A stretch of 32,956 nt of DNA. Source: Anaerosinus sp. (lineage in GTDB: Bacteria > Bacillota > Negativicutes > JARBTT01). The translations under genes were made by a program, and so were the position numbers. The DNA lies in assembly GCA_029240055.1 (NCBI GenBank), contig JARBTT010000010.1, positions 1-32,956 on the forward strand. The letters run 5' to 3'. The first letter of the stretch is position 1, and every line of letters begins with the position of its first letter. Positions 11,723 through 29,149 of this stretch are shown here, one piece after another. Under the pieces are notes generated by a model. That model did no database searches, was not told where the DNA came from, and was given only the letters and a program-made list of their open reading frames with translations.

Positions 11723-12571
11723 CTACAAAACAAGGCTTGCAAATGTAAATAGAAATACGGAAATACCAACAACACCATTACGCATAAAATATACTTGTGT
11801 TACTCTTGATAGATCATTTGCACTAACAATCGAATGTTGATAAACAAGGGTAATCATCGCAATCAGAACCCCAATATAATAAATTGAGGCTAACTTTAAA
11901 AGCACACCAACAGTGATAAAGCAAATAATGCTAATTAAATGCATTAGCTTGGCTATTTTCAGTGCCCCTGCTACCGTAAAACGAGTTGCCATAGAATTTA
12001 GGCCATGCTCTTTATCAAACTCAACATCTTGACAACCATAAATCACATCAAAACCTGCAATCCAAACAGCAACAGCAGTGCCAAGACAAAGAATCGGCAA
12101 AGACAATTCGCCCTTTACGGCAACCCAGCCACCAATTGGTGCCATCGCTAATGCTAATCCAAGTACCAAATGACAATAAGGGGTAAAGCGTTTCATATAG
12201 GGATAAATCACAAACGGAAAAACTGCAATTGGTGCAACTTTTACACAAATTGGTGCTAAATGTAAAGTCGCTATAGTAAAGACAAGAAAACTAACAACAA
12301 TTAAGGCAATTGCTTCCCAACGTTTTACTTCCCCTGTCACCATCGGACGTTTTGTAAACCGCGGATGAATTTTATCATATTTTAAATCAATAAGATTATT
12401 TAATGCCATAGCCGCACTACGTGCGCCGATCATGGCAATCGTAATCCAAATAATATTTGACCAAGTAGGAATACCATCAGTTGCCAAAAATGCACCCATA
12501 TAAGCAAACGGTAATGCAAAAACTGAATGATGCAAGGCCATGTTATTCACGTGAGCTGATAGCTTACTCAA
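11723..12571 (-). CDS. ubiA: UbiA-family prenyltransferase (menaquinone biosynthesis, MqnP-like)
   Basis: This is a membrane prenyltransferase that attaches a polyprenyl chain to an aromatic acid. Both Asp-rich motifs are present: NNLIDLKYDKIHPR and DVIYGCQDVEFDKEHG. About eight or nine hydrophobic segments are visible, and the N-terminal HHSVFALPFAYMGA is typical. I chose the TTG at 12571 (MSKLSAHVNN), preceded by AAGGA and overlapping the ubiD stop by 8 bases; the track's ATG at 12598 lacks a ribosome site. The UbiA-UbiD pair without other ubiquinone genes, in an anaerobe, fits the futalosine route to menaquinone (MqnP/MqnL). That assignment is inferred from context. Confidence 0.88.
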   Translation of the reverse strand: MSKLSAHVNNMALHHSVFALPFAYMGAFLATDGIPTWSNIIWITIAMIGARSAAMALNNLIDLKYDKIHPRFTKRPMVTGEVKRWEAIALIVVSFLVFTIATLHLAPICVKVAPIAVFPFVIYPYMKRFTPYCHLVLGLALAMAPIGGWVAVKGELSLPILCLGTAVAVWIAGFDVIYGCQDVEFDKEHGLNSMATRFTVAGALKIAKLMHLISIICFITVGVLLKLASIYYIGVLIAMITLVYQHSIVSANDLSRVTQVYFMRNGVVGISVFLFTFASLVL

Positions 12572-14024
12572 GACCAAGTTCCTTCCACTTATTATCAACT
12601 ATCTTTTTAACATCTTCTGTCATTGTTATTTCATCTGGCCATTCACGGTTGTTTCCTTCTGACGGCCAAGTTTTCGTCGCATCAATCCCGACTTTTGTTC
12701 CCCAATTTGGCATTGGTGAAGAATGATCAAGGACATCAAGCGGTCCGTCAACCATGACGATATCACGTCTTGCATCAATGTTATTGAATACACGCCACCA
12801 AACCTCTTTTGTATCTTGTACATCAACGTGTTCATCTACGATGATAATCATTTTCGTAAACATCATTTGTCCCATGCCCCAGACTGCATGCATTATTTTT
12901 TTTGCATGTTGAGGGAAAGATTTTTTAATAGAAATCATCGCACAGTTATGAAATACACCTTCAAGTGGTAAATTTATATCGATAATTTCAGGCATCTGCA
13001 TTTGTAAAAACGGCAAGAAAATACGTTCTGTTGCTTTCGCAATATAACAATCCTCCATTGGTGGTTTACCAACAATCGTTGATAAATAGATTGGATTTTT
13101 GCGATGCGTAATGCAAGTAATATGAAATACTGGATAGTTATCCGCTAGAGAATAATAGCCCGTATGATCGCCAAACGGACCTTCCCGTCTCAATTCATCC
13201 AACATTACATAACCTTCTAAGACAATCTCACTATGTGCTGGCACTTCAACATCTACGGTTTCACATTTGATCATTTCTACTGACTTCTTACGAAGCATCC
13301 CTGCGAATACCATTTCATCAATATCGCGTGGTAGTGGCGCAGTAGCTGCATACGTTAACACTGGATCAGTACCAATAGCAACGGCAACTTCAATACGATC
13401 TTTCCCCAATTCTTTGTGCTCGCGGAAGTTTTCAGCACCATTTTTATGTATATGCCAGTGCATACCAGTTGTTTTATCATCATATTTTTGCAGGCGATAC
13501 ATTCCCACATTACGTTTACCAGTTTTTGGATTTTTCGTAAACACCAATGGCAGTGTAATAAACTTACCACCATCATCCGGCCAACATTTTAGAATTGGAA
13601 ACTTGTCCAACGAAGGTTGATCTTTGATGATGACTTCTTTACAAGGACCATTTTTTACATACTTAGGAAAATTAATAGCACGTTTTGCTGTTGGAATGAT
13701 ACTCAATAAGTCTAATTTATTTTTCAAAGAAATATAAGGCAATTTTAAAATTTCTCTTATTTCATCGGCAACATCATCGACTTTTTCTACACCAAAGGCA
13801 ATTGCCATACGTTCCATACTACCAAATGCATTCATAAGAACAGGCATATCATAGCCTTTTACATTTTCAAATAACAATGCAACATTTTTATCGCCTTCCA
13901 TTTTTGAAACGCGATCCGTAATTTCCGTGATTTCTAATTCGCAATCAACTGGTGTTGCAATACGCTTCAATAAACCACGGTTATCTAATTCTTCAATAAA
14001 TTCTCTTAGATCCTTAAAAGCCAC
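12564..14024 (-). CDS. ubiD: UbiD-family prenylated-FMN decarboxylase (menaquinone biosynthesis, MqnL-like)
   Basis: UbiD enzymes decarboxylate aromatic or polyprenylated acids with prenylated FMN made by a UbiX. The 486-residue length is normal. Family blocks seen are TGMHWHIHKNGAENFREH, and LRREGPFGDHTGYYS, which carries the catalytic Glu and the Arg/Asp network. The start is GTG with a weak GAGGGG 10 bases upstream, 20 bases after the tatC stop. The gene is translationally coupled to ubiA, so both probably act on the same quinone precursor. No ubiX is in the window. A role on some other aromatic acid cannot be excluded. Confidence 0.92.
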   Translation of the reverse strand: MAFKDLREFIEELDNRGLLKRIATPVDCELEITEITDRVSKMEGDKNVALLFENVKGYDMPVLMNAFGSMERMAIAFGVEKVDDVADEIREILKLPYISLKNKLDLLSIIPTAKRAINFPKYVKNGPCKEVIIKDQPSLDKFPILKCWPDDGGKFITLPLVFTKNPKTGKRNVGMYRLQKYDDKTTGMHWHIHKNGAENFREHKELGKDRIEVAVAIGTDPVLTYAATAPLPRDIDEMVFAGMLRKKSVEMIKCETVDVEVPAHSEIVLEGYVMLDELRREGPFGDHTGYYSLADNYPVFHITCITHRKNPIYLSTIVGKPPMEDCYIAKATERIFLPFLQMQMPEIIDINLPLEGVFHNCAMISIKKSFPQHAKKIMHAVWGMGQMMFTKMIIIVDEHVDVQDTKEVWWRVFNNIDARRDIVMVDGPLDVLDHSSPMPNWGTKVGIDATKTWPSEGNNREWPDEITMTEDVKKIVDNKWKELGLE

Positions 14025-14044: not shown

Positions 14045-14815
14045 TTACTTTTTCAAAATAAATCTAACAATAATAATACTAATTTCATATAGCAAGATAA
14101 TTGGCACTGCAATCATCGTTTGCGAAAACATATCTGGTGTTGGCGATATCACTGCTCCAATGACAAAGGATAAAAAAATAAGCATCCTTCTTTGTTTCCG
14201 CAAAAAAGTTGATGAAACCAAACCAATTTTTGCTAAAACCATAATGACCAATGGTAACTCAAAAATAAAACCAAACGGCAGTAAAAATGCGACTACAAAA
14301 TCCAGATACTTTCCAATGGAAAGCAACGGCTGCAAATCAGCACTGGCAAAGCCTAAGAAAAACTTAATACCTGCCGGTAAAACAAAATAATAAGAAAATG
14401 CTATTCCTGTAAAAAATAAAAGCACCGATGCCGGTACTAATATTCCAATTGTAGCTTTCTCCTTTGGCGTAAGTGCGGGTAAAAAGAAAACCCATACATT
14501 GTACAAAATTACTGGTAAACTAATTAAAAATCCAGAAAATAATGACACTTTTAAAAAAGTGAAAAAGGCTTCTGCTGGTTGCATATAATATAATTTACCT
14601 GCCGGTGCAGTAATGAAATGTACGATGTCCTCTACAAAAAAATAAGAAATAGCACTACAAATACCAATCGCAATAAATGAACTAATTAACCTAGTCCTTA
14701 ATTCATCCAAATGCCTAAGCAATGACATATTGCCCTGTTGCTGCTCCTCGATCTGCTTTGGCGTGCGATCCTCCACATACTCTTCATAAGTCGTCTCAGT
14801 TGTCTCTTCTGACAT
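14045..14815 (-). CDS. tatC: Sec-independent protein translocase TatC
   Basis: TatC is the receptor of the twin-arginine translocase and binds RR signal peptides at the cytoplasmic membrane. The core begins with MSLLRHLDELRTRL and contains six hydrophobic helices, with the family blocks FFTFLKVSLFSG, LPALTPKE, and FELPLVIMVLAKIGLVS. An acidic extension of about 29 residues (SEETTETTYEEYVED) precedes the core. The ATG at 14815 has GAGG 8 bases upstream and lies 10 bases after tatA. An internal ATG at 14728 with AGGG upstream would give the usual TatC length, so the start is uncertain. Confidence 0.95.
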   Translation of the reverse strand: MSEETTETTYEEYVEDRTPKQIEEQQQGNMSLLRHLDELRTRLISSFIAIGICSAISYFFVEDIVHFITAPAGKLYYMQPAEAFFTFLKVSLFSGFLISLPVILYNVWVFFLPALTPKEKATIGILVPASVLLFFTGIAFSYYFVLPAGIKFFLGFASADLQPLLSIGKYLDFVVAFLLPFGFIFELPLVIMVLAKIGLVSSTFLRKQRRMLIFLSFVIGAVISPTPDMFSQTMIAVPIILLYEISIIIVRFILKK

Positions 14816-14825
14816 CAATCAAACC

Positions 14826-15068
14826 TCACTTTACTTCTGGCTTAGTAGGTTCGCTTTTTACAGTTTCATTTTTTACAGGTTCACTCTTCGTTTCTGCTTT
14901 TGTAACATTGGTTGGTTCATCATTACCCATAATTCCTGAAGTAGCTTTTTTAAATTCATTTAAACTTTTTCCTACTGCTCTTCCCACTTCTGGTAATTTT
15001 CCTGGGCCAAATACCACCAATCCAATAATTAAAATCAAGATTAATTCAGGCATACCAATACCAAACAT
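14826..15068 (-). CDS. tatA: Twin-arginine translocase subunit TatA (copy 1, long tail)
   Basis: TatA forms the protein-conducting assembly of the Tat system. The ATG at 15068 has GGAGG 8 bases upstream; the track's 118-residue form is an artefact of an open upstream frame. The 80-residue protein has a short N-terminal transmembrane helix (PELILILIIGLVVFG), the hinge [14 protein letters not shown], an amphipathic helix (KSLNEFKKATSG), and a low-complexity tail built from SEP/TK-type repeats (TKSEPVKNETVKSEPTKPEVK). It has its own likely promoter and runs straight into tatC. Confidence 0.94.
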   Translation of the reverse strand: MFGIGMPELILILIIGLVVFGPGKLPEVGRAVGKSLNEFKKATSGIMGNDEPTNVTKAETKSEPVKNETVKSEPTKPEVK

Positions 15069-15101
15069 AATAAAAACCTCCATTTTTCTACATTCAATTC
15101 T

Positions 15102-15130
15102 ATTATACAATTTCACTAATAAAAACACAA
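15102..15130 (-). promoter_or_regulatory. Probable promoter of the tatA-tatC-ubiD-ubiA-folD-fhs-metF series
   Basis: The minus strand has a perfect TATAAT (15102-15107) with TTGTGT (15125-15130) at 17 bases, between the terminator after tatA copy 2 and the tatA copy 1 start. The -35 is weak. Confidence 0.6.
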
Positions 15131-15151
15131 CGAAACATAAATATATATAAT

Positions 15152-15187
15152 AAAAAATTGTCCTTGTAATAAACAAAGACAATTTTT
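15152..15187 (-). terminator. Intrinsic terminator between the two tatA genes (possibly bidirectional)
   Basis: The minus strand reads AAAAATTGTC, a loop region with an inner TTGT/ACAA pairing, then GACAATTTTTT. The A-rich left arm means it could also act on the plus strand. It starts about 19 bases after the stop of tatA copy 2. Confidence 0.8.
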
Positions 15188-15205: not shown

Positions 15206-15397
15206 TTATTTTGTTTCTGTTTTATTAGATTCCTCTTTTGTTGGCTCACTGCTCTTCGGCTGTCCATAAAGAGCCTTTTTAAATTCATTGATACTATTAC
15301 CAAGCGATTTGCCAAACTCAGGCAACTTACCCGGTCCAAAGAAAACTAATCCAATAACTAAAATAACAAGTATTTCCGGTATACCAATACCATGCAT
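15206..15397 (-). CDS. tatA: Twin-arginine translocase subunit TatA (copy 2, short)
   Basis: This second TatA has 63 residues: a short transmembrane helix ([15 protein letters not shown]), the hinge [14 protein letters not shown], an amphipathic helix ending [10 protein letters not shown], and a short charged tail. GGAGG precedes the ATG. It lies 48 bases after the polyprenyl synthase stop and is followed by a terminator, so it is probably transcribed with that gene rather than with tatC. Both copies are closely similar through the helix and hinge and differ in the tail. Neither looks like a TatB. Confidence 0.94.
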
Positions 15398-15445: not shown

Positions 15446-16417
15446 CTAAAATTCTCTCATCGCAATAAACTCTGCTATAGTTACATAGGTTTCTCTAATT
15501 TCTTCTGGAATAGAGTTTGGCAATACATTACGTGCTTTATCTAAGTATTCTTGCACTTTAGCATAAGAATATTCTATCGCATCCGTTGCATGAACGATTT
15601 CAAGACCACGTTTCAACATCTGTTCGTCCATGTCACGAGTCATAACAATTGTTCGTAGCTCTTCGGCATCAGGACTTACACTAAGCGCATGAATCACTGG
15701 TAATGTCACAATTCCTTGTAAAATATCATTGCCAGCTGGCTTACCAATTTGTGCAGAAGTCGCAGTTAAATCAAGGATGTCGTCCGTAATTTGAAATGCC
15801 ATACCAATGGCATACCCATATTCACGCAAAGCCTCTACTTCTTCTTCATTCAACCCTGTAACAAGTCCGCCAAGTTGACAACTCGCCGCAATGAAATTGG
15901 CAGTTTTTTTAGCAATACGATCATAGTATTCTGCCTTATCTTCTGAGGCTTTAAATGTTTCCTTATTTTGAATAATTTCGCCTTCACTTAAATCACAAAT
16001 GATATCAGATAGAATAACCATAACCTGGCCACTATAACCATTTTTTGCGACTAAGGAAAATGCTTTGGCAAATAAGTAATCACCACTCAATATGGATAAT
16101 TGATTGCCCCACTTTGCATTGGCTGTTGCGATTCCCCGCCTTGTCGCCGCACTATCAATCACATCATCATGCACCAACGTCGCCATATGAATCATTTCAA
16201 TCGCCACTGCAAGCGGCATGGCATTCTTGCCTTCCATTTCCTTACAACGCGCAGCCAAAAAATAAAGAGCTGGACGTAATCTCTTTCCGCCCGCCTCTAC
16301 CAAATGAGTTCCTATATTCGTAATTAATTCTATTGGTGAATATATGACAGAAAGCATTTCTTCTTCTAAATCTTCTAAATCTTTTTCCACAATATTAAAC
16401 ATAGAGTTTTTCGACAA
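15446..16417 (-). CDS. hepT: Long-chain trans-polyprenyl diphosphate synthase
   Basis: This cytosolic enzyme builds the isoprenoid side chain of quinones from farnesyl or geranyl diphosphate and IPP. Both Asp-rich motifs are present: LVHDDVID (Asp 84-88) and ITDDILD (Asp 212-216); GGKRLRPA and GDYLFAKAF also match. Small residues just before the first DDxxD fit a long-chain product, but the exact length cannot be read. The start is uncertain: the track uses a GTG at 16426; I prefer the TTG at 16417, with AGGTG upstream, giving 323 residues. Its place beside ubiA and ubiD supports menaquinone tail synthesis. The symbol is by analogy. Confidence 0.9.
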   Translation of the reverse strand: MSKNSMFNIVEKDLEDLEEEMLSVIYSPIELITNIGTHLVEAGGKRLRPALYFLAARCKEMEGKNAMPLAVAIEMIHMATLVHDDVIDSAATRRGIATANAKWGNQLSILSGDYLFAKAFSLVAKNGYSGQVMVILSDIICDLSEGEIIQNKETFKASEDKAEYYDRIAKKTANFIAASCQLGGLVTGLNEEEVEALREYGYAIGMAFQITDDILDLTATSAQIGKPAGNDILQGIVTLPVIHALSVSPDAEELRTIVMTRDMDEQMLKRGLEIVHATDAIEYSYAKVQEYLDKARNVLPNSIPEEIRETYVTIAEFIAMREF

Positions 16418-16447
16418 ATTTATCACCTACAAGCTAAATCTCTTAAT

Positions 16448-16601: not shown

Positions 16602-16631
16602 TTTGAGGACGAGCAAATACTCGTCCTCAAA
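16602..16631 (-). terminator. Strong hairpin after mfrE, probable terminator
   Basis: The minus strand reads TTTGAGGACGAG-TATTTG-CTCGTCCTCAAA, a perfect 12-pair stem 10 bases after the mfrE stop. The T run lies on its 5' side and only CTTTAAATG follows, so it is not a textbook intrinsic terminator. It could also be an mRNA-stabilising 3' end. Confidence 0.6.
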
Positions 16632-16641
16632 AAAAAGATTA

Positions 16642-17499
16642 TTATTTGATCTTTTCTACCGCTGAAATATGGCGATTAATTCCCATATCCTCTTTACTCA
16701 TGCCCATTGCAAGACCAATTAATTGTGGTAAATGAAGTACTGGAATTTCTACTTTTGATTTTACTGCGGCTCTACCTTCAGGTTGATACATATCAAGCTG
16801 CATTTGACAAAGTGGACATGGCGTAACCATCATATCAGCGCCTGCTTTTGCTGCACTATCAACAGCTTCACCAGTCACTGTCATAACATCTCTTTCTGCT
16901 GTAAAAAATGCATGGAAACCACAGCATTTTAATTTGAAATCAAACTCTACTGGTGTTGCACCTAAAATACTGATAATTTTCTCTAGCGATTCTGGATTTT
17001 TACCATCTTCATAGTTCATAACTTTAGGTGGACGAAGTAAGTGACAACCATAATACCCAGCTACTTTTACCCCTTTTAATGGTTTTGTAATTTTTCCTTC
17101 AAACACATTTGGATTAGAAGCAAGTACCCATAATAAATGGGTTATTTCTGACGTTCCTTTATATTCATAGCCTGACTTTGCTAAAATTTCATTCACTTTT
17201 GCTTTTAAATTTTTATCACTATCTAATTTCGCTTTAGCTTGACGTAGCTCTAGTGTACAGGTATTGCATACCGTCATAATTGGCAGTCCCATACCTTCTG
17301 CAATCGCCATATTACGAGCATTGATAGCAATTAACGCTAATTCATCTACCCCTTGTGCATGAGAAGCACCACAGCATGTCCAATTAGGAATTTCAACTAA
17401 TTCTATACCAAGAGCAACTGCTACCTTTTTAGTTGCCATATAAGCTTCTTTAGCTGCACCTTCTAATACACAGCCCGGAAATAATGCATACTTCATCAT
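16642..17499 (-). CDS. mfrE: MfrE/SdhE subunit with two CCG domains (HdrB-like)
   Basis: This is the membrane-associated subunit of class E succinate/fumarate:quinone reductases, where two cysteine-rich CCG domains bind Fe-S clusters and pass electrons between the quinone and the iron-sulfur subunit. Domain 1 has Cys10, Cys42-Cys43 in TCCG, and Cys78/Cys81 in CNTC. Domain 2 has Cys152, Cys192-Cys193 in KCCGF, and Cys228/Cys231 in CPLC. So both CX(n)CCGX(n)CXXC sets are complete. No transmembrane helix or signal peptide is evident. The ATG overlaps the mfrB stop (ATGA). HdrB of methanogens is the other family with this fold, but the neighbours settle the call. Confidence 0.92.
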   Translation of the reverse strand: MMKYALFPGCVLEGAAKEAYMATKKVAVALGIELVEIPNWTCCGASHAQGVDELALIAINARNMAIAEGMGLPIMTVCNTCTLELRQAKAKLDSDKNLKAKVNEILAKSGYEYKGTSEITHLLWVLASNPNVFEGKITKPLKGVKVAGYYGCHLLRPPKVMNYEDGKNPESLEKIISILGATPVEFDFKLKCCGFHAFFTAERDVMTVTGEAVDSAAKAGADMMVTPCPLCQMQLDMYQPEGRAAVKSKVEIPVLHLPQLIGLAMGMSKEDMGINRHISAVEKIK

Positions 17500-18440
17500 T
17501 CTGCCTCCTTCGCATTTTTAAGAATATCACGTATTTTATTGATTTCTGGATTCACTGGAACTTTTTCAAATGGATCTAATTTTCCAGTTTTCATCAATCG
17601 CATTGCAAAAGGAGCCCGAAGTGCCGCTGCTACTAACCCTTCAGATTGAATAGAAAGTTTAGACTCATCTAAACGACCAGTATTATAAATATCATCATAA
17701 AGCGCTTTCGCGTGGTTTGCTCCAACGCTACTTGTTAAGCCAAGTTTGAAAGTTGCTTCGTGTAATTTTTCAATTGCTTCTGCTGGCTTAAGTCCTTTTG
17801 GACAGTTTGCCGTACATTCTTGACATTTCATACATTTCCACAAACCTGCATCAATTACAGCTTGCAAATGCTCTTTAGGATCTCTACTCCGTGAATCTAA
17901 TACAAGTTTTGCAGCTTTTACAAAAGTAAATGGATCTAAGAAATCTTTTTCATCAACTGTACTCTTATTGCATTCAGACACACAAGCCCCACATAAGATA
18001 CAGCCTGCATATTCATCATATTTTTTGAAATCAGCAATAGATTGTTTACAACCTTTTTCTGGGCTAAATTCTTTTTTCGGGTGAAGGGATGGTTTGATTT
18101 TTTTCATTCGATCAAATTTAGGATCCCAGTCTACGATTAAATCACGAAGAACTTTAAAGTTCCCTAAAGGTTCAACCGTAAGTGTTTCCGATTTATATCT
18201 TTTTACTAGATCTTCAACTAAGACTTCACAGGCAAGTTCTGCATTACCATTGACTCTAACTGCACAAGCGCCACAGATACTAGAACGACATGAAGCGGTA
18301 AACGATAATGTCGGATCTTGCATAGCTTTTATTTCATTCAATGCTTCTAAAATGGTCATTCCTTTTTTAAGCTCAACTTTATACTCTTGTACCCATTTTT
18401 TATCAGCTACTGTACGATGTATGTTTAATGTAATTGCCAT
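17496..18440 (-). CDS. mfrB: Fumarate reductase iron-sulfur subunit (MfrB, class E)
   Basis: This subunit relays electrons between MfrE and the flavoprotein. The N-terminal ferredoxin domain has the [2Fe-2S] set Cys51, 56, 59 and 71 (CRSSICGAC...AC). The C-terminal domain has two cluster motifs, CILCGACVSEC (Cys 147, 150, 153, 157) and CMKCQECTANCP (Cys 203, 206, 209, 213). At 314 residues it is longer than classical FrdB/SdhB (about 240) because of a C-terminal extension after the last cluster. It has no signal peptide, so if it is exported it must travel with MfrA. The ATG lies 2 bases after the mfrA stop, with AAAGGA inside the mfrA end. Confidence 0.94.
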   Translation of the reverse strand: MAITLNIHRTVADKKWVQEYKVELKKGMTILEALNEIKAMQDPTLSFTASCRSSICGACAVRVNGNAELACEVLVEDLVKRYKSETLTVEPLGNFKVLRDLIVDWDPKFDRMKKIKPSLHPKKEFSPEKGCKQSIADFKKYDEYAGCILCGACVSECNKSTVDEKDFLDPFTFVKAAKLVLDSRSRDPKEHLQAVIDAGLWKCMKCQECTANCPKGLKPAEAIEKLHEATFKLGLTSSVGANHAKALYDDIYNTGRLDESKLSIQSEGLVAAALRAPFAMRLMKTGKLDPFEKVPVNPEINKIRDILKNAKEAE

Positions 18441-18442
18441 GA

Positions 18443-20278
18443 TTAGTACGTCCTTTCTGCTGGTTTAAATTTTGTAATAACAACATCACGATATTCCGTT
18501 TTAAATTCATCGCCAACTTTGCTGATAATTGTATGTTTTAAGAAGTTCTTATCATCACGTTTAGGGAAATCTTTACGAGAATGACCACCACGACTTTCTT
18601 TACGTGCAATCGCCCCCATAATAATCGCCTTAGATACTAATAACAGATTACCTAACTCGATATAATTCATAAATGCAGTATTATAATTACGGCTCGCATC
18701 ACCAACATAGCAAATTTTATATTCTTTGATTAAATCATCAATTTCTTTTAACCCTTCTTGTAATTGATTTTCTTCACGATAAACTCCGGCTTTAAACCAC
18801 ATTGAAGCTGCCATTTTATCACGAAGTTCTACAACTCTAGGCCCGCTCGTTCTTGCTGTTACTTCTTCAAATGTTTTATTCCATTTAGCTAAAGCTGCAT
18901 TTAAAGCTTCTTTGTCGCCAACATAACCAACTTTTTTTGCATATGCTGGCGCACCAATACCAGCGGTTTTACCAAACATAAGAACTTCACTTAAAGAATT
19001 TGCTCCTAAACGATTTGCTCCATGAATTGATACGCAAGAACATTCACCTGCAGCAAACACGCCTGGCACTTTAGTAGCACAAGTTTTATAATCAATAACA
19101 TCTATCCCACCCATGGAGTAATGGCAAGAACACCGAATCGGCACTGGTTTTTCTGTAATATCTACGCCTTCAAAACGTAATGATAAGTCATAAACTTGTC
19201 CTAAACGTTCTTTAATAATTTCTTTTGGAATATGTCTAAAGTCTAGGTATACAGCGGCATTCAAGCCTTCGCCAATACCACGTCCTTCGCTGATTTCTGT
19301 TTCAATCGAACGTGCAACAATATCACGTGTTGCAAGTTCCATTTTGTCTGGTGCATATTTTTTCATAAAACGTTCACCATTTTTATTTAATAAGTATGCA
19401 CCTTCGGAACGACTTGATTCTGATAATAGCACCCCATTAATTGCAAGGCCTGTTGGATGGAATTGCACCATTTCTGGATCTTTAAATGGAACACCAATAT
19501 TTAAACATGCCGCGATTCCATCACCAGTGGAACTATATGGGTTAGTTGTACGAATCCAATAAGCACGACCATACCCACCAGTGGCTACGATAACCGTTTT
19601 TGCCGGTACTGAAACAATATTACCACTACGCATATCTACAGCAATAACACCACTTAATTTTTCATCTTTTACAACAATTTCAAGCATTTGACACTCTGAA
19701 ATCATTTCAACATTTTGTTCTAAACATTGTTCAAATAATGTATGTACAGTAGCAAGCCCAGATTCATCGGCATAATAAGCAGCACGTGCATGGGAGCTGC
19801 CACCCATTTTACGTTGATGGAAAGAACCATCTTCTTGACGATGGTATGGATAACCATAGTAATCCATTTCATATATAATTTTTCCTGCATTTTCCGCAAA
19901 ATACTCTACAGCATCTTGGTCACATAAATAATCTCCACCTTTTACAGTATCAAAAGCATGTGATTCAGGTGTATCTTTAGAATCTGTTACACCTGTGCAA
20001 CCATTCATCCCACCTTGCGCCATTGTTGTTGCCGAACGAGTTGGAATCAACTTCGTCATAATTGCAACCTTAATATTTTTATCCTTTGCAGCTTCTAACG
20101 CCGCACGCATACCAGCGCCACCACTACCAATAATAAGGACGTCATATAATGCTGTACCTTTTTGTACGGCTGCAGGGATATTGTTACCCTGCCACTCAAA
20201 ATAAGTACCAGCTGCAACTGCTGCTCCAACAGCTACACCAGCCTTGATAAAGGTACGTCTTGATATCTGTTCTGCCAT
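18443..20278 (-). CDS. mfrA: Tat-exported fumarate reductase flavoprotein (MfrA, class E)
   Basis: This 611-residue flavoprotein reduces fumarate to succinate. The ATG at 20278 has GGAGG 8 bases upstream; the track's TTG start overlaps that site. The N terminus is a twin-arginine signal: SRRTFIK (residues 6-12), then a hydrophobic stretch AGVAVGAAVAAG. FAD binding is shown by IIGSGGAGMRAALEAA. The position that holds the flavin-linking His in FrdA/SdhA (RSHT) is RSAT here, Ala83, so FAD should be bound non-covalently. Wolinella succinogenes MfrA likewise has an Ala (Ala86) and is Tat-exported. Catalytic residues are kept: His274 (HPTG), Glu292, Arg323, His386 (HYSMGG), Arg423 (GANRLG). I infer an extracytoplasmic methylmenaquinol:fumarate reductase. 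It leads mfrB-mfrE. Confidence 0.95.
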   Translation of the reverse strand: MAEQISRRTFIKAGVAVGAAVAAGTYFEWQGNNIPAAVQKGTALYDVLIIGSGGAGMRAALEAAKDKNIKVAIMTKLIPTRSATTMAQGGMNGCTGVTDSKDTPESHAFDTVKGGDYLCDQDAVEYFAENAGKIIYEMDYYGYPYHRQEDGSFHQRKMGGSSHARAAYYADESGLATVHTLFEQCLEQNVEMISECQMLEIVVKDEKLSGVIAVDMRSGNIVSVPAKTVIVATGGYGRAYWIRTTNPYSSTGDGIAACLNIGVPFKDPEMVQFHPTGLAINGVLLSESSRSEGAYLLNKNGERFMKKYAPDKMELATRDIVARSIETEISEGRGIGEGLNAAVYLDFRHIPKEIIKERLGQVYDLSLRFEGVDITEKPVPIRCSCHYSMGGIDVIDYKTCATKVPGVFAAGECSCVSIHGANRLGANSLSEVLMFGKTAGIGAPAYAKKVGYVGDKEALNAALAKWNKTFEEVTARTSGPRVVELRDKMAASMWFKAGVYREENQLQEGLKEIDDLIKEYKICYVGDASRNYNTAFMNYIELGNLLLVSKAIIMGAIARKESRGGHSRKDFPKRDDKNFLKHTIISKVGDEFKTEYRDVVITKFKPAERTY

Positions 20279-20356
20279 AAATAGCACCTCCAAAATTATT
20301 TAAAACACCCAAATTTCCCCCAATAGATACTTATGTCATATTCGTTACATAAATTT

Positions 20357-20685: not shown

Positions 20686-21621
20686 TTAACTATTTTTTTT
20701 ACCTGCTTGAATAATTTCCTTTGTCAACTCAATAAACGCTACTGCTGCTTTTGATAATTGCACATCTTTTTTGTAAGCAGTAACTAAACTCCGTGGCGGT
20801 ACAGGCTCTGACAAAGAGAAATAATATGGATTATGTTCTAACTTATTATACAAAGCTAACGTATCTGTAACTAACGTTGCCCCAACTCCTCCAGCAACAA
20901 GCGCCTGTGCCGAAATTAAACTATGGGATTGTAGTATAATTTTAGGCTCAAACTTTGCCCGCTCACAAAGCTCAAAAAATATCTCACGCATTTTCCGACG
21001 ATTTTTCATTACAATAAACGGCTCATCGATAAGCTTTGAAAAATCAATCGGCGGAAACGGTAACGATTGTGGTAATTTTGCCGCAGCACGACTGAACGAA
21101 TGTTTCGATGGCAAAGCCACCAAAATTTCTTCATCATCAATTTTTACATAGTCCAATTCATGATGTAACAAAGGCAAATAGACTAACGAAAAATCAGTAG
21201 CACCACTTAACGCATATTCCTGTAATTCAACGGTATTTCCTTCTATTAAAGAAATATCAATTCCAGGAAACCGTTCGCAAAACACAGGCAACACGCGTGG
21301 CAATAAATAAGAAGTGCGAGAATGTGAACTACCAATCGTCAGATGGCCTCGCTTTAACTCCGACATGTCTTCTATTTGTTGGATTAATTCTTTTTTTATA
21401 TCTTGAATTCGTTTTGCTTCATTTATGTATAATTCGCCTGCAAAAGTTAGTGTTAAAGGATTTGTACGACGATCAAACAATTCTACACCCAATTCATTTT
21501 CAACCTTTTTTATACATTGGCTCAATGACGGTTGCGTCACATACAGTCTTTTTGCTGCCTGTGAAAAACTTCGTTCCTCAGCAACTTTTAAAATATAATT
21601 AATATCGCGTTCATCAATCAT
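20686..21621 (-). CDS. LysR-family transcriptional regulator
   Basis: This 311-residue protein has the N-terminal LysR winged helix-turn-helix (FSQAAKRLYVTQPSLSQCIKKVENELG, about residues 19-45), a linker helix, and a two-lobed periplasmic-binding-protein-like effector domain starting near TIGSSHSRTSYLLPRVLPVF. GGAGG lies 9 bases before the ATG. The ligand is unknown. It lies between the amino-acid exporter upstream and mfrABE downstream, all on the same strand, so either could be its target; there is no divergent partner to point to. Cytosolic DNA-binding is expected from the family. Confidence 0.93.
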   Translation of the reverse strand: MIDERDINYILKVAEERSFSQAAKRLYVTQPSLSQCIKKVENELGVELFDRRTNPLTLTFAGELYINEAKRIQDIKKELIQQIEDMSELKRGHLTIGSSHSRTSYLLPRVLPVFCERFPGIDISLIEGNTVELQEYALSGATDFSLVYLPLLHHELDYVKIDDEEILVALPSKHSFSRAAAKLPQSLPFPPIDFSKLIDEPFIVMKNRRKMREIFFELCERAKFEPKIILQSHSLISAQALVAGGVGATLVTDTLALYNKLEHNPYYFSLSEPVPPRSLVTAYKKDVQLSKAAVAFIELTKEIIQAGKKNS

Positions 21622-23301: not shown

Positions 23302-23769
23302 TCACTCACAAAAATAACGCATACTTGTTTTTTTCCACTCTTTTAAGCTATATAGCATTGTTTTTTCCGTTAAGTTATTTTGCTCGGCAATTTTATTTGC
23401 TATTGCTTCACATTCCTCGCGACTGTGTCCGTGAATCATCGTATACACGTTATACGGCCATCCAGGCATAGTATTGCGATCATAACAATGCGATATGGAC
23501 GGACTGGTCGCCATCAAAGTTGCCACTTCTTCTAGACGACTTTCTGGAACGATCCACGCACATAATGCGTTAGCTGCATAGCCAACTTCACGATGCCTAA
23601 GTACTGCCCCCATCTTACGAATTTGACCCGACCGTTTATATCTTTTTAATCGTTCAATGAGTTCTTCTTGTGTAATGCCAATTTGCTGCGCTAACACTTG
23701 ATAAGGTTCTGCCACCAATGGAAATTCATCTTGCATAGCTCTTATTATTTTTTTATCTAATTCATCCAT
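23302..23769 (-). CDS. ahbB: Siroheme decarboxylase subunit AhbB (AsnC/Lrp-like)
   Basis: AhbA and AhbB together decarboxylate siroheme to 12,18-didecarboxysiroheme, the first step of the siroheme-dependent heme pathway of anaerobes and archaea. Both have an AsnC/Lrp fold. This 155-residue subunit has an N-terminal helix-turn-helix-like part (LDKKIIRAMQDEFPLV), RKMGAVLRHREVGY, and then SHCYDRNTMPGWPYNVYTMIHG (about 93-114), the family's His/Tyr block. The track's GTG start abuts the ahbA stop; I chose the ATG at 23769 with AGGTG upstream. A plain Lrp-type regulator is the alternative, but the tandem pair and WPYN block favour AhbB. The A/B labels follow convention and could be swapped. Confidence 0.85.
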   Translation of the reverse strand: MDELDKKIIRAMQDEFPLVAEPYQVLAQQIGITQEELIERLKRYKRSGQIRKMGAVLRHREVGYAANALCAWIVPESRLEEVATLMATSPSISHCYDRNTMPGWPYNVYTMIHGHSREECEAIANKIAEQNNLTEKTMLYSLKEWKKTSMRYFCE

Positions 23770-23778
23770 TGCTTTCAC

Positions 23779-24231
23779 CTACTTCAACTTAAACTGAACG
23801 CTAACTTTATACTTACGGTTAGCCTTCAAACTTATTAAATTTTCAACTCCAGGTAAATTACGTATGTCAGCTAAAATCTTATCTTGTGTTTCTAAATCTG
23901 GAGTAAGTAACGTAAACCACAAATTAAAATCGCCTTCACGTTCATAATTATGCGTAACGCCAGGATATGTATTGATTGCGCTAGCTACACTTTCCATATA
24001 GCCATTTGTTACCTTAGTTGCAATCAACGTGCCAGCATAGCCAAGTTTCGTAGAATCAAAAAATGGACCAATCCTTCTTAAATAGCCTTGTTCTTTCAGT
24101 TCTGTTAATCGATTGATGACCACTGTCTCATCCGTTCCTAAAACTTGTGCTAAATCAGCAAAAGGACGCTTACTAATTGGTAATTCTGTTTGTAGAATAT
24201 TTAACAATTCCTTATCAAAAGCTGTTAACAT
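23779..24231 (-). CDS. ahbA: Siroheme decarboxylase subunit AhbA (AsnC/Lrp-like)
   Basis: This 150-residue partner of AhbB has the same AsnC/Lrp architecture: an N-terminal helical part (DKELLNILQTELPISKRPF), then RRIGPFFDSTKLGYAGTLIA and VTHNYEREGDFNLWFTLL (about residues 92-109), the conserved siroheme-decarboxylase block with His94 and Tyr96. AAGGAG lies 8 bases before the ATG. It directly precedes ahbB. Later pathway genes (ahbC, ahbD) and siroheme synthesis genes are not in the window, so the route to heme, or possibly heme d1, cannot be followed here. Confidence 0.85.
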   Translation of the reverse strand: MLTAFDKELLNILQTELPISKRPFADLAQVLGTDETVVINRLTELKEQGYLRRIGPFFDSTKLGYAGTLIATKVTNGYMESVASAINTYPGVTHNYEREGDFNLWFTLLTPDLETQDKILADIRNLPGVENLISLKANRKYKVSVQFKLK

Positions 24232-27457: not shown

Positions 27458-29149
27458 CTAGATATGTACCGTCGCACTTGCTGCTGTTAATAAATCTGGT
27501 TGTGGTACTTTTGTTTTTATACATTCTTGCGCATGATTCGATATGGATGATTCTGCAATCGCTTCCTCTAATGTTTCAATTCCGATGATTTCTATCCCAT
27601 AGTTTCCATATAACATCTGCATATTTCCCTTGGGAATCAAAACCTTGCGGGCTCCAGCCTGCTTAGCCGCACTAATTTTAGCACTTACACCACCAACAGG
27701 ATGAATCAACCCACGAATCGAAATTTCACCCGTCATCGCTACTGTATTATCGATGGGAATTTGATTAATTGCGGAATAAATCGCAATCGCGATACTCACA
27801 CCAGCCGAAGGTCCATCAACAGGCCCAGCACTGGGAAAATTAACATGAACATTATATTTTTTAAAATTAATTTCATACTGATTTGCTAGTACTGTAATCA
27901 CATTTTCTACCGATTCTTTTGCCATACTCTTACGACGAACCGTGTGCCCTGGTGAAGTGATTTCTTCCTCATCAACCACACCTGTAACAATCAAGGTACC
28001 AGCCCCAAATTTATTTTCTACGGCACAAGCTTCTACTTCCATCATCGCGCCCAAATTTGCTCCATATACAGCCAGTCCATTCACAAAACCAATTTGCGGT
28101 TTTGGCGCAATTTTTTTATCACACCTTGGATTGTACTGGCCAAAGTTTACAACCCATTCTACGTCAGCGGCTTTTACAGTACTAGCCCCTTCATTTATTG
28201 CTACACCAGTGGCTATTTGTACGATATTTACAGCATCCCTACCATTCATTGCATAATTTTGAATCACTTCAATTGCTTTCTCTTCGAAATCAAACGATAT
28301 TTTCCGAAAAGCATTGCGAGCAATCACAGCCACCTCTTCAGGAAGCAACTGGCGGAAAAATATTTCAACACACCTCGATCGAATAGCTAAAGGTATTTCC
28401 TGCGGAAGTCTAGTCGTAGCTGCTACAAGTCGAAAATCCGCTGGCAGTCCATTCTGAAAAATATCGTGAATATAATTTGGTATATTAGTATCCTCACTAT
28501 TATAATAGGAACTTTCTAAAAAGACTTTACGATCTTCTAGTACTTTTAGTAGCTTATTCATCTGAATATGATGCAACTCACCTATTTCATCAATAAACAA
28601 AATACCGCCATGTGCCTTCGTCACTGCTCCAGCCTTGGGTTGTGGAACCCCAGCAATACCGAGAGCACCTGCGCCTTGATAAATTGGATCATGCACAGTT
28701 CCAATGAGCGGATCAGCAATGCCGCGTTCATCAAATCTAGCCGTTGTAGCATCCATTTCAATAAACTTAGCGTCTCTGGCAAATGGAGACGTTGTATAGC
28801 GTTTTGCTTCTTCCAATACCAATCGCGCAGCCGCAGTTTTTCCGATACCCGGTGGCCCATATATGATAACATGCTGTGGATTCACTCCACATAACGCTGC
28901 CCGAAGAGCTTTAATCCCTTCATCTTGTCCAATGATTTCATAAAAATGACTCGGTCTTGTTTTTTCTGATAACGGCTCCGTTAAGGAAATTTCACGAAGT
29001 TTTTGAAGTTTCTCCATCTCCTTTTTTGATTCGCGATTGACAGCACTCTTATTTCCTTGCTGTGATTTAAGCAATGAGAAGAAATATAGACCTATGACGA
29101 TAACAAAAAATAATTGGATAAACGTGATCGCATTAACTGCATAATCCAA
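27458..29149 (-). CDS. lonB: Membrane-anchored Lon-type protease LonB
   Basis: This 563-residue AAA+ protease lacks the LonA N-terminal domain. It starts with one hydrophobic helix (FIQLFFVIVIGLYFFSLL, about 10-27) that should anchor it in the membrane with its catalytic part in the cytosol. Walker A GPPGIGKT is at 98-105; Walker B is GGILFIDEIGEL. The peptidase Ser448 is in VDGPSAG and Lys491 is 43 residues on, as in active Lon enzymes. The start is TTG with GGGGG 9 bases upstream. In Bacillus subtilis the homologous LonB is forespore-specific, so it may mark a spore-forming lineage; no sporulation promoter was identified here. clpX lies upstream and lon downstream. Confidence 0.94.
   Translation of the reverse strand: MDYAVNAITFIQLFFVIVIGLYFFSLLKSQQGNKSAVNRESKKEMEKLQKLREISLTEPLSEKTRPSHFYEIIGQDEGIKALRAALCGVNPQHVIIYGPPGIGKTAAARLVLEEAKRYTTSPFARDAKFIEMDATTARFDERGIADPLIGTVHDPIYQGAGALGIAGVPQPKAGAVTKAHGGILFIDEIGELHHIQMNKLLKVLEDRKVFLESSYYNSEDTNIPNYIHDIFQNGLPADFRLVAATTRLPQEIPLAIRSRCVEIFFRQLLPEEVAVIARNAFRKISFDFEEKAIEVIQNYAMNGRDAVNIVQIATGVAINEGASTVKAADVEWVVNFGQYNPRCDKKIAPKPQIGFVNGLAVYGANLGAMMEVEACAVENKFGAGTLIVTGVVDEEEITSPGHTVRRKSMAKESVENVITVLANQYEINFKKYNVHVNFPSAGPVDGPSAGVSIAIAIYSAINQIPIDNTVAMTGEISIRGLIHPVGGVSAKISAAKQAGARKVLIPKGNMQMLYGNYGIEIIGIETLEEAIAESSISNHAQECIKTKVPQPDLLTAASATVHI

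Follow-up and report, generated by a model that had tools for sequence, protein, structure and literature searches.

A class E complex II with a twin-arginine signal in a Negativicutes genome is predicted to be an outward-facing menaquinol:fumarate reductase

The closest described systems to the locus studied here are the MfrABE enzymes of Wolinella succinogenes and Campylobacter jejuni, which are 8-methylmenaquinol:fumarate reductases (MFR). The MFR of W. succinogenes is exported by the twin-arginine translocation (Tat) pathway, has an alanine (Ala86) at the flavin site, and shows no detectable succinate oxidation (PMC2680327). In the A86H variant, the flavin adenine dinucleotide (FAD) becomes covalent, and succinate oxidation is still absent (PMC2680327). 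In this study, an mfrA-mfrB-mfrE locus was analysed in a 32,956-nucleotide stretch of DNA from Anaerosinus sp. (contig JARBTT010000010.1), referred to as the window. The window is one entire contig of a metagenome-assembled genome (MAG) of the class Negativicutes (84% complete, 2.86 Mb), from a bacterium with kinship to Selenomonas and Sporomusa. The locus occupies 16642-20278 on the minus strand, and its gene ends overlap or almost touch. The analysis suggested, with a probability of about 0.7, that the complex is an outward-facing menaquinol:fumarate reductase, which is MFR-like and not an 8-methylmenaquinol-specific MFR. The features of the locus are as follows.

18443..20278, minus strand: mfrA-like flavoprotein of class E complex II with a predicted Tat signal, 611 residues (TIGR01812, NF042982, PF00890, PF02910, PF10518).
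20186..20278, minus strand: predicted Tat signal region, MfrA residues 1-31, with SRRTFIK and a hydrophobic helix at residues 7-26 (PF10518, predicted local distance difference test (pLDDT) <50 in the model, conserved N-termini).
20030..20032, minus strand: codon of Ala83, at the flavin-linking His position of FrdA/SdhA (alignment with E. coli FrdA His45).
17496..18440, minus strand: mfrB-like iron-sulfur subunit, 314 residues, no signal peptide (TIGR00384 208 bits, cut-off 88; NF042952 331 bits, cut-off 600).
16642..17499, minus strand: mfrE-like anchor and quinone module, 285 residues, no signal peptide (two PF02754 domains; NF042965 348 bits, cut-off 500).

An in-frame TTG at 20293, upstream of the ATG of mfrA, is an alternative start that would add five residues.

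Class E, on the published description of the W. succinogenes enzyme, is recognised by a CCG subunit with ten cysteines and an iron-sulfur subunit with an extra cysteine (PMC2680327). The window MfrE had exactly ten cysteines and two CCG domains, and the third cluster of MfrB had four cysteines, C203-C206-C209-C213 (CMKCQECTANC). The window complex, with its CCG-domain anchor in place of a haem anchor, is a class E complex II of the SdhABE type.

MfrA scored 694 bits against TIGR01812 (cut-off 567) and matched PF00890 and PF02910, which identified it as a complex II flavoprotein. E. coli FrdA was also the closest solved fold to the MfrA model, with a template modelling (TM) score of 0.86. E. 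coli FrdA His45 (counted with Met) aligned to MfrA Ala83, which showed that RSAT was real. The linking His on which the covalent histidyl FAD of an oxidising succinate dehydrogenase depends is thus replaced by Ala83. By analogy with W. succinogenes MFR and the His mutants of FrdA/SdhA, Ala83 would go with the loss of succinate oxidation (PMC2680327). The counterparts of FrdA His233, Glu246, Arg288, His356, and Arg391 were kept in MfrA as H274, E287, R318, H386, and R423. The only change among the dicarboxylate-site residues tested was Thr245 to Ser. Since the His is lost and the dicarboxylate site is intact, fumarate reduction is favoured. The same site bears on the possibility that the exported reductase has one or more other small unsaturated acids, or a mixed set, as its physiological acceptor. 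Other fumarate-reductase-like flavoproteins use other substrates, a solved urocanate reductase was found among the distant relatives, and the exact acceptor cannot be told from sequence; however, the retention of the FrdA dicarboxylate site made this highly unlikely. At the position of FrdA Glu49, the Ala-type Negativicutes had Gln, while Campylobacterota MFR and Desulfovibrionaceae had Glu. The PDB includes an entry named for FrdA E49Q.

The N-terminus of MfrA was MAEQISRRTFIKAGVAVGAAVAAGTYF, in which SRRTFIK is followed by a hydrophobic stretch. It scored 26.4 bits against the Pfam TAT_signal model PF10518 (cut-off 22.7). The motif [STND]RRx[FL][LIVM] would arise by chance in a 35-residue N-terminus of such composition with a probability of about 3e-4, and the 24 other window proteins checked all lacked it. 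Among 89 close-relative loci inspected, the twin Arg was retained in all but one (L087, with an odd N-terminus). In the AlphaFold model of MfrA (22 aligned sequences, mean pLDDT 84.8), residues 1-31 were the only segment below 50, and one helix lay within it at residues 7-26. MfrB and MfrE had no signal peptides, as expected if both ride along with MfrA.

Of 53 distinct Tat-bearing MfrA sequences, 13 had a lipobox-like Gly-Cys where the hydrophobic stretch ends. Such a Gly-Cys was seen in L007, L012, L040, L042, L056, L067, and L086, and in weaker form in L037, L039, and L093. Every Cys at the end of a Tat signal was preceded by Gly, and the character changed seven times on the tree. The Gly-Cys forms mostly matched the general lipobox pattern, with the AYLGC forms matching poorly; the window MfrA had no lipobox-like Cys. 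This suggests that some relatives are Tat-exported lipoprotein forms of MfrA. Since a lipobox is useful only after export, the Cys in the relatives supports export. The neighbourhood was also examined. The genes tatA-tatA-tatC and menaquinone genes followed mfrABE in the window, in the nearest of the relatives compared (G003, 91% identical), and in two Propionispira genomes. In G015, tat and menaquinone genes flanked mfrABE on both sides, and Schwartzia succinivorans had a partial version. This neighbourhood was absent from all non-Tat loci inspected. TatC was found in all 76 genomes checked, Tat-bearing and non-Tat alike, and hence does not tell these groups apart; the idea that the non-Tat relatives merely lack a Tat system was rejected. 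A signal carried by MfrB or MfrE in the non-Tat members was also rejected, as none was seen there. The motif, the lipobox, the synteny, and the predicted helix together indicated that MfrA is probably exported across the inner membrane. An Omp85/BamA protein is encoded in the host genome, so there is an outer membrane and hence a periplasm. The initial annotation, which had noted the Tat signal, RSAT in place of RSHT, mfrB and a double-CCG mfrE directly downstream, and a diderm host, was borne out in these respects, and the W. succinogenes traits that it named (Tat export, Ala86, no succinate oxidation) agree with the published ones (PMC2680327).

The window complex resembles W. succinogenes and C. 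jejuni MfrABE in the mfrA-mfrB-mfrE order, the Tat signal on the flavoprotein only, the flavin-site Ala, the extra-Cys iron-sulfur subunit, the ten-Cys CCG subunit, and the conserved dicarboxylate site (PMC2680327). On these grounds it might be a true 8-methylmenaquinol:fumarate reductase, an equivalent ortholog whose Tat signal came from a common exported ancestor. The MFR model was also the best NCBIfam match by score for MfrB and MfrE, and the second best for MfrA. However, the scores were far below the MFR cut-offs (MfrA NF042982 685 against 1100 bits; MfrB NF042952 and MfrE NF042965 as listed above), while Campylobacterota MFR flavoproteins scored 1144-1199 bits. The signal and linker sequence also differed, and the window had Gln and not Glu close to FAD.

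To compare quinone donors, methylmenaquinone methyltransferases were searched with six published MKMT motifs (two slightly relaxed) and a full-length control protein at E 1e-30. All seven MFR-bearing Campylobacterota genomes gave a MenK/MqnK-type methyltransferase, which carried all six motifs in six of them and four in the seventh. At the same threshold, it was found in none of 25 Tat-bearing Negativicutes (host included), 18 non-Tat Negativicutes, two Desulfovibrionaceae, and one Coriobacteriia genome. The only weak match in Negativicutes (L260, G321) lacked the motifs and resembled HemW, and it was rejected. Among the radical-SAM matches in the host, HemW was the only protein of this kind, and no MenK/MqnK-type enzyme was found. 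PF06969 (HemN_C) was discarded as a MenK/MqnK probe, as it gave no second match in the MFR-bearing Campylobacterota used as positive controls. Because the methyltransferase was not found in 25 Tat-bearing Negativicutes and menaquinone genes were present, plain menaquinol is the probable donor, rather than 8-methylmenaquinol.

The phylogeny of 59 flavoproteins was built with IQ-TREE after removal of the signal. Flavoproteins with Ala or Thr at the flavin-linking position formed one group (support 99/97). Within it, Campylobacterota MfrA was sister to non-Tat Desulfovibrionaceae (100/100), while the window MfrA fell in a separate Tat-bearing clade of Negativicutes (100/100). Forcing all Tat sequences together cost 102 log-likelihood units and was rejected (p of the approximately unbiased test, p-AU, 2.5e-47). 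The tree of MfrB plus MfrE concurred, with Campylobacterota beside Desulfovibrionaceae (99/97) and a p-AU of 0.025 for a single Tat clade. These trees, the model scores, the Gln/Glu difference, and the failure to find the methyltransferase made an equivalent ortholog of MFR unlikely. A single clade of Negativicutes was not rejected (p 0.47), and the order of the three subgroups was left unfixed by the tree. Two gains of the signal require two steps, while one gain requires at least two losses besides, so two gains are favoured; since the subgroup order is not fixed, two gains are likely and not proven. The outward orientation therefore probably arose twice, in Negativicutes separately from the Campylobacterota MFR. 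On a fuller scenario, rated at somewhat better than even, fumarate respiration turned outward two or more times. The starting point would be a cytoplasmic enzyme of class E from which the flavin-linking His was already gone, and a Tat signal would have been acquired on one occasion in Campylobacterota and on another in Selenomonadaceae/Sporomusa; the enzymes of this second group would work on ordinary menaquinol, and some of them would be tethered Tat lipoproteins.

In this respect the initial annotation was not supported: the sub-cut-off scores, the tree position, and the failure to find a methyltransferase speak against identity with MfrA as an 8-methylmenaquinol:fumarate reductase. Of the tree placement that it had proposed to examine, a distinct Tat-bearing Negativicutes clade was recovered, but not beside Campylobacterota MfrA. 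The complex should work like MFR but departs from it in the model cut-offs, the tree position, and the methyltransferase.

The distribution of the complex was investigated in 300 genomes drawn from the host's class. A close homolog was present in 97, with the N-terminal extension in some and not in others. A scan of named genomes gave Tat-bearing homologs in Propionispira, Sporomusa, Selenomonas, Mitsuokella, Schwartzia, and Centipeda, and non-Tat homologs in Veillonella, Solidesulfovibrio, and others. The complex is widespread in Selenomonadaceae and Sporomusa. The non-Tat Ala-type class E complexes of Veillonella, other Negativicutes, and Desulfovibrionaceae (L005, L006, L008, L072-L080, and L082-L089) shared the subunits and the flavin-site Ala, and their MfrA was about 48-58% identical. 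They differed in that none of the subunits seen had a Tat signal and no tat genes adjoined the operon in the loci inspected. Ala without a Tat signal was found in 12 of 12 non-Tat Negativicutes of the Ala group and five of five Desulfovibrionaceae in the tree. Therefore, Ala does not mark an exported enzyme, and the pairing of the two traits in the initial annotation had to be given up. Thr (RSTT) without a Tat signal occurred in two Negativicutes (L017 and L187). Gln (RSQT) occurred in L094, L097, and L099 (Patescibacteria/Peregrinibacteria) and in L100-L112 (Campylobacterota), and His was kept in homologs from Coriobacteriia and other Campylobacterota. In 2009, the SdhABE enzymes of C. jejuni and W. 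succinogenes were regarded as the only complex II enzymes without this His (PMC2680327). This view no longer holds, and the loss is widespread.

Some further observations were made on these relatives. The Desulfovibrionaceae complexes (L082-L089, L114, and L115) are non-Tat class E enzymes that scored about 865 bits on the MFR model, above the Tat-bearing Negativicutes, and they are the nearest kin of Campylobacterota MFR. One Campylobacterota genome (G098) had two mfrABE copies (L194 and L195), both with flavoproteins over the MFR cut-off. In a Schwartzia MAG (L067:6974-9790), MfrA and MfrB lay in one reading frame, which may reflect either a fusion or an erroneous frameshift.

Several findings weigh against an outward-facing menaquinol:fumarate reductase. 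Gln88 of MfrA is the SdhA-type residue at the position of FrdA Glu49, and in E. coli enzymes a Gln at this position shifts the balance towards succinate oxidation. A clear signal cleavage site was not found in the window MfrA. The scores on all three NCBIfam MFR models also count here. As the host MAG is 84% complete, failure to find the methyltransferase or a second fumarate reductase in this one genome is weak evidence.

Gln88 and the complex II homology would fit the label expected from routine annotation, a succinate:quinone reductase (SdhABE) that operates oxidatively. However, the flavin-linking His is absent, and the published mutants and MFR tie its loss to a lack of succinate oxidation; the relatives are anaerobes with menaquinone genes, and the Tat signal would place the enzyme away from cytoplasmic succinate. 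This function was considered the least probable of all. The missing cleavage site, together with non-Tat relatives that carry the same three genes in the same class, could mean that the N-terminal stretch is no export signal and that MfrABE is cytoplasmic like those relatives. The conserved twin-Arg motif and hydrophobic stretch, the adjacent tat genes, the recurrent lipobox-like Cys, and the separate signal-less FrdAB of relatives argued against it, and a cytoplasmic location was regarded as very unlikely. The statement of the initial annotation that the locus encodes an outward fumarate reductase and not a succinate dehydrogenase was thus supported by the Tat signal, Ala83, and a fumarate-competent site, while its direction and location stay predictions and Gln88 calls for caution.

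The genes around mfrABE and other features of the window are as follows.

20686..21621, minus strand: LysR-type regulator upstream of mfrA (PF00126/PF03466).
16602..16631, minus strand: stable hairpin 3' of mfrE (-20.6 kcal/mol, z -6.7), with no strong T run behind.
15446..16426, minus strand: HepT-like polyprenyl diphosphate synthase (PF00348; TIGR02748 295 bits, under cut-off).
15206..15397, minus strand: TatA-like protein 1, 63 residues (matches window TatA).
14826..15182, minus strand: TatA-like protein 2 (NF011430 83 bits, cut-off 62), whose true start is probably an internal ATG.
14045..14818, minus strand: TatC (TIGR00945 205 bits, cut-off 133).
12564..14024, minus strand: UbiD-family menaquinone decarboxylase of the futalosine pathway (TIGR03701 641 bits, cut-off 496).
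11723..12598, minus strand: UbiA/MqnP-like menaquinone prenyltransferase (TIGR01475 283 bits, cut-off 181; MqnP models under cut-off).

G003 and many Selenomonas loci likewise had a LysR-type regulator upstream of mfrA. Matches to sigma-70-like promoters at the locus were at chance level only. The hairpin is a possible end of the mfrABE transcript; its strength suggests a separate transcript, and the tat and menaquinone genes form a neighbourhood without implying one operon. Such adjoining genes, and the lipobox-like Cys of some relatives, are further differences from W. succinogenes and C. jejuni MfrABE. The HepT-like synthase probably serves the quinone side chain. The pair of neighbouring tatA-like genes before tatC recurred in Propionispira and G003. 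Elsewhere in the window, adjacent genes at 23302-24231 exceeded the cut-offs for siroheme decarboxylase AhbB and AhbA, and a spore-type LonB protease, also over cut-off, was sited at 27458-29149 between lon and clpX.

From the genes, motifs, predicted fold, conservation, tree, and neighbourhood observed, we infer the following assembly order, export, quinone donor, and direction. MfrA would fold with non-covalent FAD in the cytoplasm and bind MfrB (one 2Fe-2S and two 4Fe-4S clusters) and MfrE (two CCG modules) there. The Tat signal of MfrA would then carry the entire complex across the inner membrane, with MfrB and MfrE riding along. Outside, electrons would pass from menaquinol through MfrE and MfrB to the FAD of MfrA, and periplasmic fumarate would be reduced to succinate. 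The fumarate may be extracellular or may arrive via a Dcu exchanger. A Dcu carrier was present in the host genome, and 21 of 24 Tat-bearing genomes had a DcuA/DcuB-type carrier, as did 6 of 16 genomes of the non-Tat group, counts that are not independent of kinship. Shewanella FccA, a periplasmic flavocytochrome c, is likewise exported and reduces fumarate with non-covalent FAD, as predicted for the window complex; it differs in having a haem domain in place of the iron-sulfur and CCG subunits, and the similarity is only distant.

In six Tat-bearing relatives, a His-type FrdAB without a signal was also kept, adjoining a probable cytochrome b subunit; MfrABE is thus not just the cytoplasmic enzyme of these genomes. 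This class B-type FrdAB belongs to the same fumarate/succinate flavoprotein family, but has the His-linked FAD motif RSHS and no signal, and is presumably cytoplasmic. Two fumarate reductases, one on each side of the membrane, would coexist in these six relatives, as in W. succinogenes. In the host MAG, the only other protein of the family besides MfrA was an L-aspartate oxidase-like protein.

No exported fumarate reductase described in Negativicutes was found in the open-access literature, which is not proof of absence. The three MFR traits seem to be separable: covalent FAD appears to have been lost first, and export and methylmenaquinol use were separate additions. The finding is of interest for this separate origin of export and because it would put some of the fumarate respiration of selenomonads outside the cytoplasm. 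Selenomonads are important users of hydrogen and fumarate in the rumen (PMC6776011). If the prediction is true, the periplasm would be a site of fumarate reduction in Sporomusa and in selenomonads of the rumen and the mouth, and some species would have a cytoplasmic fumarate reductase as well. Added fumarate would then be usable as an electron acceptor without import, and both energy yield and succinate route would depart from the usual cytoplasmic scheme.

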